A DNA stretch of 64,000 nt from an uncultured Eubacteriales bacterium (lineage in GTDB: Bacteria; Bacillota; Clostridia; Oscillospirales; Acutalibacteraceae), in NCBI GenBank assembly GCA_900316455.1, contig ONCX01000016.1:32657-96656 (forward strand). Direction: 5' to 3'. The position numbers and the translations under genes were made by a program. Numbering within the stretch: the stretch's first letter is position 1; the number at the start of each line of letters is the position of its first letter. The notes under the pieces were generated by a model. It saw nothing but the letters and a program-made list of their open reading frames with translations, was not told where the DNA came from and did not search any database. Of the stretch, positions 1 through 37,813 are shown piece by piece.

Positions 1-246
1 GACCGCCTGAGCAAGAATGTGAGACGTCGTGTGCCAGAATGCCTTTTTGCCTTCCGGATCATCGAATGTCAGAATTTCAGCCTCACAGTCCTTATTGAGA
101 ACCGTGCGGAGATCGCACACCTTACCGTCAACCCTCGCGGCGCACGCGGACTTATATAGCCCCGCTCCTATGGATTTTGCAATCTCGGCTACAGATACGC
201 CGGATTCAAATTCTCTCACGTCGCCTTTCAGCGTTACCTTAATCAT
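1..246 (-). CDS. thrS: Threonyl-tRNA synthetase, N-terminal part (runs off the window)
   Basis: Charges tRNA-Thr with threonine. Only the first 82 codons lie in the window. They show a TGS domain (residues 1-62, opening MIKVTLKGDVREF) and then the start of the editing domain with FWHTTSHILAQAV, the histidine-containing motif typical of ThrS. The ATG at 244-246 has an acctcc complement (253-258) as its ribosome binding site at good spacing. The gene sits behind a T-box leader and its own promoter, so uncharged tRNA-Thr probably controls it. The upstream gene on the same strand encodes a membrane protein with a similar TGS domain. Identification is firm; the rest of the enzyme is outside the window. 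Confidence 0.95.
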   Translation of the reverse strand, partial: MIKVTLKGDVREFESGVSVAEIAKSIGAGLYKSACAARVDGKVCDLRTVLNKDCEAEILTFDDPEGKKAFWHTTSHILAQAV

Positions 247-299: not shown

Positions 300-627
300 A
301 TTAAAACTCACCCCGAACGCGCCGCAATGCACATTCGGGGTGAGGCGTAAATCTGATAGAAAACCCCACGGTTCCACCCGTGTTGAAGCTGATATTTATT
401 CAATACCGCTTCCGCTCATAATAAGACCTTTAACGCGGTCACGCGCCGGAGCTTATGCTTTAAATAATTCTCTGCTTTTTCGCTTCGGACTCAGGAGCGG
501 TTTATGCCTGAATGCCCCGTCCGCCCTCTCAGCATACAGGCGGATCTCTGTGACATGGAACAGAAAGGTTTTTTCTCCATCGACGTTTTTTTATTATTTA
601 TTCATTCGACATGAACTTATTGTAACC
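300..627 (-). promoter_or_regulatory. T-box leader of thrS
   Basis: Read on the minus strand, 364-380 gives GGGTGGAACCGTGGGG, close to the T-box consensus GGGTGGNACCGCG that binds the tRNA acceptor end. It is followed by a strong terminator hairpin at 307-344. Upstream, 480-560 can form a GC-rich stem (CCGCC pairing with GGCGG) that fits Stem I. The leader fills the whole gap between the promoter and thrS. I could not place the threonine specifier codon with confidence. Confidence 0.9.
307..344 (-). terminator. Intrinsic terminator of the thrS T-box
   Basis: The arms ctcaccccgaa and ttcggggtgag form an 11-bp stem with a loop of about 16 nt, followed on the minus strand by TTTTAATTTATT. It lies directly after the T-box motif, so it is the conditional terminator of the leader. 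Confidence 0.85.
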
Positions 628-656
628 ATGATAACTCAAATAAAATAATTTGTCAA
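628..656 (-). promoter_or_regulatory. thrS promoter
   Basis: On the minus strand there is TTGACA (651-656), a 17-bp spacer and TATCAT (628-633), preceded by an A-tract. It starts just past the stop codon of the upstream TGS-domain gene. Confidence 0.75.
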
Positions 657-673
657 TAGTTTTTTTTGACAAA

Positions 674-2464
674 TCAGCCCACTACCTCATCAGGATCATA
701 TCCTGTCGGAACTGAAGGCTTTTCGGAAGTGACAGGCGCAGTTGTGGCTTTTGTAGTACTTGCGGTTGTGACTTTCGTAGTACTTGTGGTTGTGACTTTC
801 GTAGTACTTGTGGTTGTGTCTTTTGTCGTACTTGCGGTTGTAGGCTCTGTCGTACTTACAGTCGTAGACTCTGTCGTACTTGCGGTTGTAGGCTCTGTCG
901 TACTTGATGTTGTCTTTTTGGTTTTGGCTGTTGTCTTTTTTGTTGTTGTTGTGGTTTTCTTAGTCGTGGTCTTTTTAGTTGTGGTTGTGGTCTTTTTAGT
1001 TGTGGTTGTGGTCTTTTTAGTTGTGGTTGTAGTCTTTTTTGTTGTTGTTGTGGTTTTCTTAGTCGTGGTCTTTTTAGTTGTGGTTGTGCTTTGAGTAGTC
1101 GTGTCAGCCGTCGATGAGGTGACAGTCGATTCAGTCGCTTCTGTAGTCTTATCTGATTCTGACGGAATAGATTCCACATTATCATTCTTTGTGAAATCGG
1201 TTGCAGAAACATCAGTCATAGACACAGGCGCTTTGTTGCCATTATCCTTAACTCCTGACGAACCGACAGCCTGAATTGCAAGCCTTCCAACTCCCCAGCC
1301 CACACCGAGCAGAAGCGCTATTATCAAGGCTGCCTTAGCAAATGCGGGAATTCCGCGCTTTCCGCGCTTATAAGCCGGTTTTGCCGCAACGGAGCTTTCG
1401 GCATGACTTGTTTCATAATTTACAAAATCATCTATTGAATCATCATCTACATCATACGCTGATTGATTTGATAAATCTTCTGCTGTAATTATTTCTTGCG
1501 TATCTTCGTCTTTTACACCTTCATTTTCCGAAACAATACTTTCGGATTCCGGCTTGACCGCCTGAGCGGAAATAAAATCATTCATGTCGCCGTCGTCTAT
1601 GGAATAATCACTGCCGGATTCATTGATATGCTGTTCATCAACTTCTTCTGTTTCCGCGCCGCTCTGAGCCATTTCAGTTCCGAAAAACATCATCATGGCA
1701 ATGTCAGAATTCCCCGCGTCATCTGATTTCTCAGAAATATCCTCTTTTGGTTCAGCCGGAGTATCCGTTTCGTACTCTTCGGCAAAAGTCTGTTCTTCAT
1801 CATTGCTTTCGTCAAACAGACTCTCTGACAGTTGGCTGAAGCAGAAATTTCTGAGAGAAGCAAATTCACCGTCATATTCCGGTTCAATCTCCTCGTCAGA
1901 ATCTTCTTCCGGACTGTAATCGGAATCATCAAATTCAGACGCTTCATACTGTAAATTATCTTCCGCAGGTTCGTCAATATCTTCAGCTGGCAGACTGTCG
2001 CCTTCGAGACTCTGCTCAACATTGTCTTCCGATCCTTCAGCATCGTCAAGTTCGTCAAGCTCGTCAATAATCCTTGCCATTTCATCGAAAGGATCACCGT
2101 CGTCCTTATAATCCTTGGACATTACAACCTGACCCTCATCGTCAGTTTTAATCATACGGTCCAATGTCATCATCGTGAATTCCGCAATCTCGTCAGACGA
2201 GGGAACATAGCCGTATTCTGCGGAGTCAGTCAATTCATCGGCAGATTTTTCACTGACAGACTGTTTCCCCCCAAGATCTCTGAATGTAAGCAGTTCCATT
2301 TCACAATCTTCACTGACAGTATCCTCCAGACTAAGCTTCTTTCCGTTTGCTTTTACAGCGCAGACAGACTGCAAATACTCCGGATCGAATTCATTAAGAA
2401 CGTCATAAACAGCAATTTTCTGATTAAATCTCTTTGTTTTACCATTAATCGTTATATTTATCAT
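674..2464 (-). CDS. TGS-domain membrane protein with acidic cytoplasmic segment and Thr/Lys-rich tail
   Basis: A 596-residue protein of unknown function. Residues 1-65 (opening MINITINGKTKRFNQKIAVY) align by eye with the TGS domain of the neighbouring ThrS, including the shared pattern DCEMELLTF versus DCEAEILTF. Residues 66-360 are very acidic and look disordered. A basic stretch (YKRGKRG) and one membrane helix follow (about 366-398), then an outside tail. Residues 458-520 of the tail are repeats of runs of Thr with Lys pairs, followed by TTxSTTE-type repeats to about 585. By the positive-inside rule the TGS domain is cytoplasmic and the tail extracellular. The ribosome binding site is GAGGGAAC. 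It probably forms a unit with the upstream peptidoglycan-binding gene, which has the same layout. The tail resembles wall-spanning or O-glycosylated linkers. No catalytic domain is visible. Confidence 0.85.
   Translation of the reverse strand: MINITINGKTKRFNQKIAVYDVLNEFDPEYLQSVCAVKANGKKLSLEDTVSEDCEMELLTFRDLGGKQSVSEKSADELTDSAEYGYVPSSDEIAEFTMMTLDRMIKTDDEGQVVMSKDYKDDGDPFDEMARIIDELDELDDAEGSEDNVEQSLEGDSLPAEDIDEPAEDNLQYEASEFDDSDYSPEEDSDEEIEPEYDGEFASLRNFCFSQLSESLFDESNDEEQTFAEEYETDTPAEPKEDISEKSDDAGNSDIAMMMFFGTEMAQSGAETEEVDEQHINESGSDYSIDDGDMNDFISAQAVKPESESIVSENEGVKDEDTQEIITAEDLSNQSAYDVDDDSIDDFVNYETSHAESSVAAKPAYKRGKRGIPAFAKAALIIALLLGVGWGVGRLAIQAVGSSGVKDNGNKAPVSMTDVSATDFTKNDNVESIPSESDKTTEATESTVTSSTADTTTQSTTTTKKTTTKKTTTTTKKTTTTTKKTTTTTKKTTTTTKKTTTKKTTTTTKKTTAKTKKTTSSTTEPTTASTTESTTVSTTEPTTASTTKDTTTSTTKVTTTSTTKVTTASTTKATTAPVTSEKPSVPTGYDPDEVVG
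905..1090 (-). repeat. Coding repeat for Thr/Lys tract
   Basis: Degenerate short tandem repeats (gttgtggttgtggtcttttta on the plus strand) encode runs of four to five Thr separated by Lys-Lys. Thr codons are mixed (ACA, ACC, ACT, ACG), so the repeat is kept mostly at protein level, with some near-identical DNA units prone to slippage. Confidence 0.8.
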
Positions 2465-2539: not shown

Positions 2540-4396
2540 TCAAGGATTTCCAATATTCTCAGATGTATTTAAATAAGAATCGTTGTTTTCTGAAATTATA
2601 GGTTCCGCCTCCGTCGGGGCGGTATCTGACGGATTATCTGATGTTCTATCTTCATCTGATGAATCGGCAGACGTCGCGGTTGTCGGCTTGGTTTCTTCAG
2701 AGGAGGAAGCCGACGACGTAACGCTTTCTGTCTGTGACGCGGACGTTGGCGTTTCCGTGCCTGTAGTCTGCGTTTCAGCTTCAGTAGTTGTCGGCAAATC
2801 TGTCGTTCGCGTGGTGGGAGCTGTCGCGTTGCTGTCGAATATCAGCTGATATGTCGATTTATCCACCACTCCTGTAGCTTCAAGATAATTTGCTTTCTGG
2901 AACATCACAACAGCGTTTTTGGTGGTCGAGTCATATACTCCGCTCACATCTCCCTGATTAAGATATCCAAGAGACGCAAGGGTTCTCTGAACCGCGTCAA
3001 CCATATCCCCTTTGTCGCCGAGTGTGAGCTTCTCCGCAGTGAAGTCAGGAACTACTACCGGCTCCGGCTCCTGATCGTCCTTAAAAGGCTTTATGATCGT
3101 ACTCGACGTGGAATAATTATATTCGTCAGCCGAAACAGTATCATCCGCGCCCATTACGGAAAAAGCCACAACGCTCAGAAGCCACGCAAGACCGACAACA
3201 ACAGCAAGCAACGCGGCAATCTGGGCAAGTCCCTTGAAAAAGCCGTAACGCTTCTTCCGGCGGATCTCGGCATAATCAGGCGAATAGCCGCCTGCACCGC
3301 CATATGTCGGCTGCGGTCTGACCAGCTCAAAAACGTTCGTATGCTCTATCTCACCGACGCTTTCCGACAGGTCAATCACCATTTCTTCATCAGAATAATC
3401 CGGTTCGGGCTGATTGCCGCCATGAAATACCTTTACGTCATCGTCTTCCTCATATGATGAATAATCCTGTTTTACAAATATCTTAACGTCGTCATCATTG
3501 TTGTCTTCAATATAGAAATTATCTTCCTGATTCTTGATTTCAGAATCAGACGAATATTCATTCAATTTCAACGAATTGACCCTGTCCGAAAGGTCAAATT
3601 CAACGGTTCTTTCCTCGGCAAATTCTTCGTCAGGATCCTCTGAATCGCTGCCAAGCTCATTCGCAAGCATAAAAAGATCCGCGGAAGACACTTCGTTTTT
3701 ATCTTCTTCACTGCCATCATTGAAAACTTCCTGCAAGTCGTCAACTAAATCGGTTATTCTTTCGTTAATAAGTCCATCTTCTTCGGGCTGTTCGTCCTCC
3801 GGCTGCTCGGCTTCGGGCTGTTCGTCCTCCGGCTGCTCGGCTTCGGGCTGTTCGTCCTCCGGCTGCTCGGCTTCGGGCTGTTCGGCTTCGGGCTGTTCGT
3901 CCTCCGGCTGTTCGGCTTCTGACTGTTCGTCCTCCGACTGCTCGGCTTCGGGCTGTTCGTCCTCTGACTGCTCGTCCTCCGACTGCTCGTCTTCGGGCTG
4001 TTCGGCTTCGGGCTGCTCGTCCTCTGACTGCTCGGCTTCGGGCTGTTCGTCCTCCGACTGCTCGGCTTCGGGCTGCTCGTCCTCCGACTGCTCGGCTTCG
4101 GGCTGTTCGTCCTCCGACTGCTCGGCTTCGGGCTGTTCGTCCTCCGACTGCTCGTCCTCCGACTGCTCGTCTTCGGTCTGTTCGGCTTCGGACTGTTCGT
4201 CCTCTGGCTGCTCGGCTTCGGGCTGCTGCAATTCATCTGCAAGCAATTCGAGTTCCACGGAAAGATCATTGTCAGACGATTCTTCAAAGCCCTCCGGAAA
4301 ATCCTCCGCGCTCTCTTCGTTAATCGCTTCCGCCTGAGCGGTTTCGTTCAATTGCAGTTCTTCTTCGTTCTTCTCCCTGATATCTTCTGAAATCAT
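2540..4396 (-). CDS. Membrane-anchored protein with acidic repeats and a peptidoglycan-binding domain
   Basis: A 618-residue protein. The N-terminal half is cytoplasmic and highly acidic. Residues 55-207 are some 30 units of a five-residue repeat (EQPEA / EQSED). After another acidic segment and a basic RRKKR patch comes one membrane helix (about 385-415). Outside lies a PG_binding_1-type domain (about 455-520, LTLGDKGDMVDAVQRTLASL through GVVDKSTYQLIF), then a Ser/Thr/Glu-rich tail. It probably attaches to the cell wall, with the repeat segment as an intracellular stalk or interaction surface. The ATG has GAGGGAAC upstream and a sigma-A-like promoter at 4453-4481. It leads the pair with the TGS-domain gene. 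Function is unknown. Confidence 0.85.
   Translation of the reverse strand: MISEDIREKNEEELQLNETAQAEAINEESAEDFPEGFEESSDNDLSVELELLADELQQPEAEQPEDEQSEAEQTEDEQSEDEQSEDEQPEAEQSEDEQPEAEQSEDEQPEAEQSEDEQPEAEQSEDEQPEAEQPEDEQSEDEQSEDEQPEAEQSEDEQSEAEQPEDEQPEAEQPEAEQPEDEQPEAEQPEDEQPEAEQPEDEQPEEDGLINERITDLVDDLQEVFNDGSEEDKNEVSSADLFMLANELGSDSEDPDEEFAEERTVEFDLSDRVNSLKLNEYSSDSEIKNQEDNFYIEDNNDDDVKIFVKQDYSSYEEDDDVKVFHGGNQPEPDYSDEEMVIDLSESVGEIEHTNVFELVRPQPTYGGAGGYSPDYAEIRRKKRYGFFKGLAQIAALLAVVVGLAWLLSVVAFSVMGADDTVSADEYNYSTSSTIIKPFKDDQEPEPVVVPDFTAEKLTLGDKGDMVDAVQRTLASLGYLNQGDVSGVYDSTTKNAVVMFQKANYLEATGVVDKSTYQLIFDSNATAPTTRTTDLPTTTEAETQTTGTETPTSASQTESVTSSASSSEETKPTTATSADSSDEDRTSDNPSDTAPTEAEPIISENNDSYLNTSENIGNP
3774..4230 (-). 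repeat. 15-bp coding minisatellite
   Basis: About 30 copies of a 15-bp unit (plus strand ctgctcggcttcggg / ctgttcgtcctccga) encode the acidic five-residue repeat. Many adjacent 30-bp blocks are identical, so copy number is probably variable between strains. Confidence 0.85.
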
Positions 4397-4452: not shown

Positions 4453-4481
4453 ATTATAAGATATTCCACGATTTAATTCAA
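4453..4481 (-). promoter_or_regulatory. Promoter of the acidic-repeat/PG-binding gene
   Basis: TTGAAT (4476-4481), a 17-bp spacer and TATAAT (4453-4458) on the minus strand, about 57 bp before the ATG. Confidence 0.6.
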
Positions 4482-37599: not shown

Positions 37600-37785
37600 G
37601 CAGGAAACAAAAATGTCCGTCCCAGATATGCCACCAAGGACGGACAGACAAATTCATCATGAAAAAATGCGGAATCCACACTATTAATATCACCTGAAAA
37701 TGCTCTGTTTCCCTCGGCAGGCGTTTTCATCACGAAAAACGTTGGGCAAAAATGCAACCTGCTGTCTTTGGTATTTCATTCAGCA
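37600..37785 (-). promoter_or_regulatory. L10 leader of rplJ-rplL with attenuator
   Basis: On the minus strand AGACAGCAGGTTGC (around 37755-37768) is complementary to CGCCTGCCGAGGGAAACAG (37705-37725), the signature pairing of the Firmicutes L10 leader. It is followed by a terminator-like hairpin tgtccgtcc/ggacggaca (37614-37646) with TTTTTG. Confidence 0.85.
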
Positions 37786-37813
37786 TAAGCCGAATGTTGT
37801 ACACAGCTTTATT

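Follow-up and report, generated by a model that had tools for sequence, protein, structure and literature searches.

Organization of the locus

The window (the whole stretch of DNA analysed here, 64,000 nucleotides long) carries at its beginning, on the reverse strand, two adjacent genes for membrane proteins (P0002, then P0001), followed by a promoter-like site, a T-box leader and the start of thrS, in that order (Table 1). The P0001 gene encodes 596 amino acids from its ATG: an N-terminal TGS domain (the ‘head’), a long acidic stalk, a single membrane helix and an outside part of 194 residues, of which 43% are Thr and 14% are Lys. An earlier, sequence-only reading of this DNA had proposed such an acidic stalk, a single helix and a Thr/Lys-rich outside tail, and both the structure model and the residue composition bear that layout out; the same reading overlooked that most orthologues have a PG_binding_1 domain and that the upstream gene is a paralogue. 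In an AlphaFold (AF2) model of residues 1-403 (mean pLDDT 56.6), the trustworthy parts are the TGS domain and the helices alone. The 15 residues preceding the hydrophobic stretch of the helix carry a charge of +5, and these positive residues on its N-terminal side suggest an N-in, C-out topology; residues G389, W390, G401 and S402 are invariant across 11 full-length orthologues. Searches against Pfam found no editing, catalytic or anticodon domain of a synthetase in P0001 at E<=10, and such domains are likewise absent from the eight Pfam families listed for the 11 orthologues. Matches to NCBIfam are all far under cut-off, and fall mostly in the low-complexity tail.

Table 1. Features at the beginning of the window, in window coordinates
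Feature	Position	Strand	Basis
Beginning of thrS, which likewise encodes a TGS domain (82 aa in window)	1..246	-	PF02824, 47.5 bits
Terminator-like hairpin of T-box	307..344	-	Terminator-like site
T-box leader of thrS	333..592	-	RF00230, 76.5 bits, E 3.2e-16; specifier ACC (Thr) by eye
thrS promoter-like site, TTGACA-N17-TATCAT	628..656	-	11/12 hexamer letters; 17 nt past P0001 stop
P0001, TGS-membrane protein gene	674..2464	-	Open reading frame; orthologues in 14/18 genus genomes including own
P0001 outside part, Thr/Lys-rich, without PG_binding_1	677..1264	-	Composition, Pfam, orthologue comparison
Single transmembrane helix (residues 374-400)	1265..1345	-	Predicted model
Acidic stalk, mostly disordered (residues 67-371)	1352..2266	-	305 aa, net charge -81
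Second conserved stalk motif, YDVDDDSIDDFVNYE (residues 337-351)	1412..1456	-	Orthologue alignment
Conserved stalk motif, DYSIDDGDMNDF (residues 286-297)	1574..1609	-	Orthologue alignment
TGS domain (residues 1-66), presumed cytoplasmic	2267..2464	-	Profile, fold, dN/dS
P0002, upstream neighbour (618 aa), paralogue without TGS	2540..4396	-	Homology, tree, Pfam
Promoter-like site ahead of P0002, TTGAAT-N17-TATAAT	4453..4481	-	10/12 hexamer letters, consensus match only

Identity of the N-terminal head

Between residues 1-69 of P0001 and the start of the neighbouring ThrS there is a gap-free alignment (22/69 identical, pairwise E 1e-12), and the similarity stops near residue 69. The Smith-Waterman score of this pair is 122, whereas none of 2000 shuffles scored above 48; a BLAST version of the same comparison, in which 1500 of the 2000 shuffles gave matches, yielded 51.6 versus 22.3 bits. 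Taken singly, the window copy is undecided in Pfam, since it falls under the cut-off both for TGS (13.1 bits, cut-off 22.2) and for ThiS (19.7 bits, cut-off 22.5), and the assignment to the ThrS type is therefore decided by a profile of 14 family members. Aligned (by hhalign) with 28 ThrS TGS rows, a set from which L033 and L037 were left out, that profile gives 99.4% probability and an E-value of 8.6e-22 over 68 columns; searched against PDB profiles, it places ThrRS (6vu9) first at 1.3e-6, with SAMP2 third (0.002), ThiS (2lek) at 0.3 and Rel (6yxa) at 0.75. When the 14 members are searched individually, ten give a Pfam TGS hit with E<=1 (best 4.5e-8) and four give none, while Pfam ThiS also matches ten (best 4.3e-5).

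A model of the head alone (AF2; pLDDT 89.6, pTM 0.72) contains five strands of at least three residues, and its best Foldseek match is 1tje, a chain titled as the editing domain of ThrRS (TMq 0.83, E 9.3e-6), followed by further chains of ThrRS and by mL39 of the mitoribosome, with ThiS (3cwi) sixth. It is very improbable that the domain is instead a ThiS/MoaD sulfur carrier or a member of some other ubiquitin-like family. The higher ThiS score of the window sequence (both scores being under cut-off), the equal count of members matched and the sixth place of 3cwi speak for such an assignment, but ThrRS comes first in the family profile, the PDB profile search and the fold search alike, and the best single-member E-value belongs to TGS. 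Sulfur carriers moreover need a free C-terminal Gly-Gly, which the head does not have because the domain runs on into the stalk. Profile comparison and modelled fold thus confirm the head as a TGS domain of the ThrS type, as the sequence-only reading had held; the structure prediction which that reading had suggested as a check returned a ThrRS-like beta-grasp fold rather than an unrelated ubiquitin-like one.

Distribution and linkage to thrS

Fourteen of the 18 genus genomes, that of the window (G000) included, carry the P0001 gene; the other carriers are G001, G002, G004, G006, G008-G011 and G013-G017. In 12 of the 14, thrS is the next gene on the same contig, and the other two (G006 and G017) have the gene truncated by a contig end, while a separate contig carries the terminal part of a gene of this kind ahead of thrS. 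Linkage to thrS, first noticed in the window and then followed through a survey of gene order, is accordingly kept among the carriers of the genus. A CotH-like gene and the PGB paralogue also stay linked, however, as far as the fetched stretch reaches (by eye), and the adjacency may therefore be plain synteny. Two draft genomes, G003 and G007 (83% and 87% complete), contain thrS with no match to the membrane protein found, and so the gene may be dispensable; in G007, no Thr tail can be read in the 240 bases ahead of the thrS promoter. The remaining two (G005 and G012) gave no matches even for thrS and are uninformative on gene presence. The Thr tail of the G008 orthologue (L050) is interrupted by a run of unknown bases, beyond which the reading frame breaks down; this is probably an assembly gap in the repeat.

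A search of 300 genomes of the family matched 245, of which, among the matches listed, four belong to this genus. Outside the genus, none of the listed matches is of full length or extends past position 144 of 404, and most are ThrS-length frames, with a few cut or shorter. Four family genomes were listed with two matches, the second of which was short in each case (three TM-like, one of 43 residues), and no TGS-stalk-TM protein was found in these four. At the level of the order (394 genomes, E 1e-21), the window’s own genome was the sole match. The named relatives are metagenome-assembled genomes of uncultured Ruminococcus (RUG10784, RUG14461, RUG14799 and RUG10756), uncultured Clostridiales (RUG198) and uncultured Clostridia; the RUG names presumably point to the rumen.

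Variation and constraint among orthologues

The set of full-length orthologues (n=11) leaves out the partial copies of G006 and G017 and the copy of G008 with its run of N; correspondingly, G006 and G017 were dropped from alignments A2 and A3, and G008 from A2. Eight of these 11 have a PG_binding_1 domain (‘PGB’, PF01471) that separates the helix from the Thr tail, and the G008 protein, outside the set, also has a PGB region. According to Pfam, PF01471 is absent from the window protein and from the G004 and G010 orthologues; the window protein is a PG_binding_1 membrane protein by descent alone, the domain itself being absent. The three PGB-less proteins (G000, G004 and G010) cluster in the TGS tree (100/84), so that one loss suffices. 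The order TGS-stalk-TM-PGB-Thr tail is likely to be the ancestral form, and we infer that the PGB domain was lost in the window species and two relatives rather than gained elsewhere.

Two motifs recur in the stalk, in the forms DYSVDDxDMDxF and YxVDxxxIxDFVDY. Both occur in the window protein and in G002, G004, G009, G010, G015 and G016, the same six orthologues, from its nearest relatives, that keep a MQMHLGVPKIDDLV-like stretch which the window copy does not have; the first motif occurs also in G008, G011 and G013, and clear copies of either are absent from G001 and G014.

The TGS domain is better conserved than the protein as a whole, with a mean column identity of 60% (n=14) versus 38% over the full-length alignment (n=11); C54 is kept in 13 of 14 heads, and G8, A36, G41 and F61 are kept in all 14. 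Among the closest 15 of 91 pairs, 12 give the domain a dN/dS of 0.11-0.24 and three have saturated dS; these values are rough, with dS above 1 in several pairs. In each of the same 15 pairs, the ThrS copy of the domain has the lower pN. The TGS domain of the membrane proteins is under purifying selection, and is thus kept for something, if only its fold.

The upstream paralogue and the origin of the head

P0002 is laid out as an acidic stalk, a TM helix, a PG_binding_1 domain and a Ser/Thr tail, with TGS absent. P0001 orthologues share a homologous TM-PGB region with it (blastp to 1.6e-21), and in a 160-column tree (which does not include the upstream paralogues of G006, left out, or G008, cut at a contig end) one branch (99/96) separates nine TGS-bearing rows from 12 TGS-less rows plus that of G003. 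Homology and tree together establish, at the level of sequence comparison, that P0001 and P0002 are paralogues. The duplication would predate the divergence of the carriers if the root lies on the branch between TGS-bearing and TGS-less rows, a rooting that the tree itself does not establish. The promoter-like site ahead of P0002 perhaps serves both membrane-protein genes. In G003, a TGS-less PGB protein is encoded directly ahead of thrS; this protein groups with the TGS-less rows, though placing it among the TGS-bearing ones is not rejected (p 0.265), and its state may reflect either the time before the gain of the head or a loss.

The sequence-only reading had suggested that the head arose by duplication of the first domain of ThrS, and the evidence on this point is divided. 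Searched with the head profile, the four ThrS domains of the genus that were in the set are the top non-self matches (65.7-71.2 bits), followed by other ThrS domains (up to 65.3 bits) and by the TGS domains of uridine-kinase-type proteins (up to 55.4 bits). A 67-column tree (without L089-L092, L001 and matches under 50 residues) prefers to group the head with the uridine-kinase-type TGS (99/100, on long branches), so that a clade with ThrS is not demonstrated. The uridine-kinase-type rows nest inside the TGS-membrane rows, for which a single clade is not rejected (p 0.43); once the uridine-kinase-type rows and the longest other rows are removed, the TGS-membrane rows form one clade (100/99). 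A clade of the head with ThrS of the genus is not rejected either, with or without the uridine-kinase-type rows (p-AU 0.21 and 0.22, respectively). The four TGS matches at E<=1 in the window’s own genome are ThrS, YchF, P0001 and a 766-aa frame, which we take to be Rel/SpoT; no uridine-kinase-type TGS is seen among them. It is plausible, judged from these comparisons, that the TGS domain was copied from the neighbouring thrS.

Several further features of the TGS-less proteins may be recorded. The stalk of P0002 contains a long run of acidic EQPEAEQ/EQSEDEQ repeats, and P0002 and its relatives carry T-x-V-F motifs (for example HTNVF, KTAVF and DTQVF), which to our eye resemble Ser/Thr-kinase or FHA sites. 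The genus also encodes short TM-PGB proteins at other loci, and two of these have neighbouring genes that resemble, by eye, those for exopolysaccharide synthesis; in proteins with such neighbours (L133 4384-5238 and L134 4508-5287), the sequences GYSVNSTLLEEF and DFSINSVHLDEF resemble a P0001 stalk motif.

The thrS promoter, the T-box and the Thr-rich tail

A site resembling TTGACA-N17-TATnAT is found ahead of thrS in 16 of 16 loci of the genus, G003 and G007 included, and lies 17-57 nt past the stop codon of the membrane protein gene in 11 carriers. A T-box is present at all 16 loci as well (the window, L044-L048, L050-L053 and L055-L060), with scores of 52.7-76.5 bits that lie below the Rfam gathering score of 93, for which reason default scans miss it; GGCATxxACC surrounds the specifier in 15 of the 16, the exception being G008. 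Elsewhere in the window, an L10 ribosomal leader is found at 37600-37789 on the reverse strand (RF00557, 49.1 bits).

The P0001 gene lies upstream of the thrS promoter and T-box, and is not transcribed behind the T-box. The sequence-only reading had speculated that the Thr-rich tail serves as a sink or sensor for charged tRNA-Thr; on that view its translation would report to the thrS T-box. After codon 430, in a position just ahead of the T-box, the tail does contain 81 codons for Thr, and the absence of any listed terminator-like site between P0001 and the thrS promoter makes some read-through into thrS possible. The separate thrS promoter intervenes at every locus, however, even where the gene itself was not found, the Thr codons are mixed (ACA 35, ACT 18, ACC 17, ACG 11) rather than tuned to ACC, and Thr/Lys tails of similar kind occur on TGS-less proteins; on these three grounds a sensing role of the tail, which is hardly credible, was set aside.

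A proposed wall-tethered adaptor and its alternatives

We tentatively favour, at somewhat short of an even chance, the view that the P0001 family consists of cell-wall-tethered membrane adaptors with a TGS docking head. A PGB membrane-protein gene and its TGS-bearing copy form a tandem beside thrS. The paralogy, the domain and the adjacency are observed; the order of events and the donor are conjectural, one copy having gained an N-terminal TGS, perhaps from thrS. Inside the cell, the head would act as a ubiquitin-like docking site for a protein or RNA partner, while the acidic stalk would provide a flexible spacer in which the two conserved motifs look like further docking sites. A single helix is predicted to cross the membrane, and outside it the PGB domain (to judge from its family) and the Thr-rich tail would hold the protein in the wall; in the window species and two relatives, the PGB domain is absent, presumably through loss, and the Thr/Lys tail alone is left. 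The role of such a protein would be to position or retain a cytoplasmic partner at the envelope.

The docking role is argued by analogy. The TGS domain of SpoT, according to one report, binds ACP and Rsd, and together with the helical domain binds YmgB (PMC10704370), and a TGS head without an attached enzyme could therefore serve as a docking module. The preference for a protein partner is a choice, because TGS is called an RNA-binding domain in two beta-grasp surveys (PMC1949818, PMC1779556), one of which places it almost always in RNA-binding multidomain proteins (PMC1779556). Several observations count against the adaptor: the window copy has neither a PGB domain nor the MQMHLGVPKIDDLV stretch, clear stalk motifs are missing in two carriers (G001 and G014), no gene was found in G003 and G007, and Pfam ThiS matches as many members as TGS, with four of the 14 giving no TGS match.

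An unlikely account is chance capture, in which the TGS domain arrived as the gene pair arose beside thrS and does no more than cap the N-terminus stably, without binding any particular partner. Capture beside a presumed donor needs no function, and the sub-threshold Pfam score of the window head, the four members without a TGS match at E<=1 and the two genomes without a copy would all sit well with a mere cap; the low dN/dS of the closest pairs and the retention of C54, G8, A36, G41 and F61 oppose it, although the keeping of a fold could explain part of that constraint.

It is quite unlikely that the head engages ThrS, tRNA-Thr or another translation partner at the membrane, and so links threonine charging or translation to the envelope. 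The domain type shared with ThrS, the adjacency of thrS (with contig ends that fit in the two broken cases) and a membrane-anchored synthetase known in cyanobacteria (PMC4893482) lend it some weight. Against this stand the missing synthetase, editing and anticodon domains (Pfam), the separate thrS promoter and the possibility that the adjacency is synteny; a search of the window’s own genome (88.6% complete) for a FemAB-type wall ligase likewise found none at E 0.01. Distinctly improbable, finally, is a transmembrane link from wall to translation, in which the outside part would read or hold peptidoglycan and the TGS head would govern where ThrS, tRNA or an alarmone enzyme is located or how active it is; if true, it would tie the state of the wall to the supply of translation.

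Whichever role applies, the TGS head on a membrane protein of a wall-binding family is likely to be a new domain architecture: among titles and abstract openings in the open-licence literature, no description of TGS on a membrane or peptidoglycan-binding protein was found. An accessory domain of a synthetase family appears to have been reused in a genus-specific envelope protein of uncultured Ruminococcus-like bacteria, and the P0001 family thus offers a clean natural case in which to ask what a TGS domain binds when no enzyme is attached to it.

Comparison with known systems

The closest counterpart of the head is the TGS domain of bacterial ThrRS (PF02824; 1tje, 1qf6 and 1nyq), with which P0001 shares its fold, its N-terminal position and a gap-free 69 residues, including the DCE..LTF.D end common to the ThrS TGS and the P0001 head. 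The differences are equally clear: P0001 is a membrane protein in which editing, catalytic and anticodon domains were not found by Pfam, and P0001-type heads have not retained the DLR motif that all 28 ThrS rows share. The remainder of the protein finds its likeness in single-pass PG_binding_1 proteins such as P0002, with which most P0001 orthologues share the stalk, TM helix, spacer, PGB domain and Thr-rich tail, whereas P0002 has no TGS head and the window’s own P0001 has no PGB domain.

The TGS domain of SpoT/Rel may be likened to the P0001 head as a docking site, but the relationship is weaker (E 0.75 for Rel 6yxa versus 1.3e-6 for ThrRS), and P0001 has neither an HD nor a synthetase domain. 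Reuse of TGS outside ThrS is seen also in the uridine-kinase-type proteins, with which the tree groups the P0001 head, and in mL39, which matches it in fold and is itself ribosomal. L075 carries the kinase domain PF00485; L071 (cut by a contig end), L076, L078 and L080 are called uridine-kinase-type by resemblance. We know of no membrane protein among the uridine-kinase-type TGS proteins or mL39.

Synthetase-related parts are tied to the membrane in MprF/LysX. In cyanobacteria, CAAD-anchored aminoacyl-tRNA synthetases are tied to the membrane as well (PMC4893482). The CAAD systems anchor a synthetase, whereas P0001 anchors only a 66-residue accessory domain.
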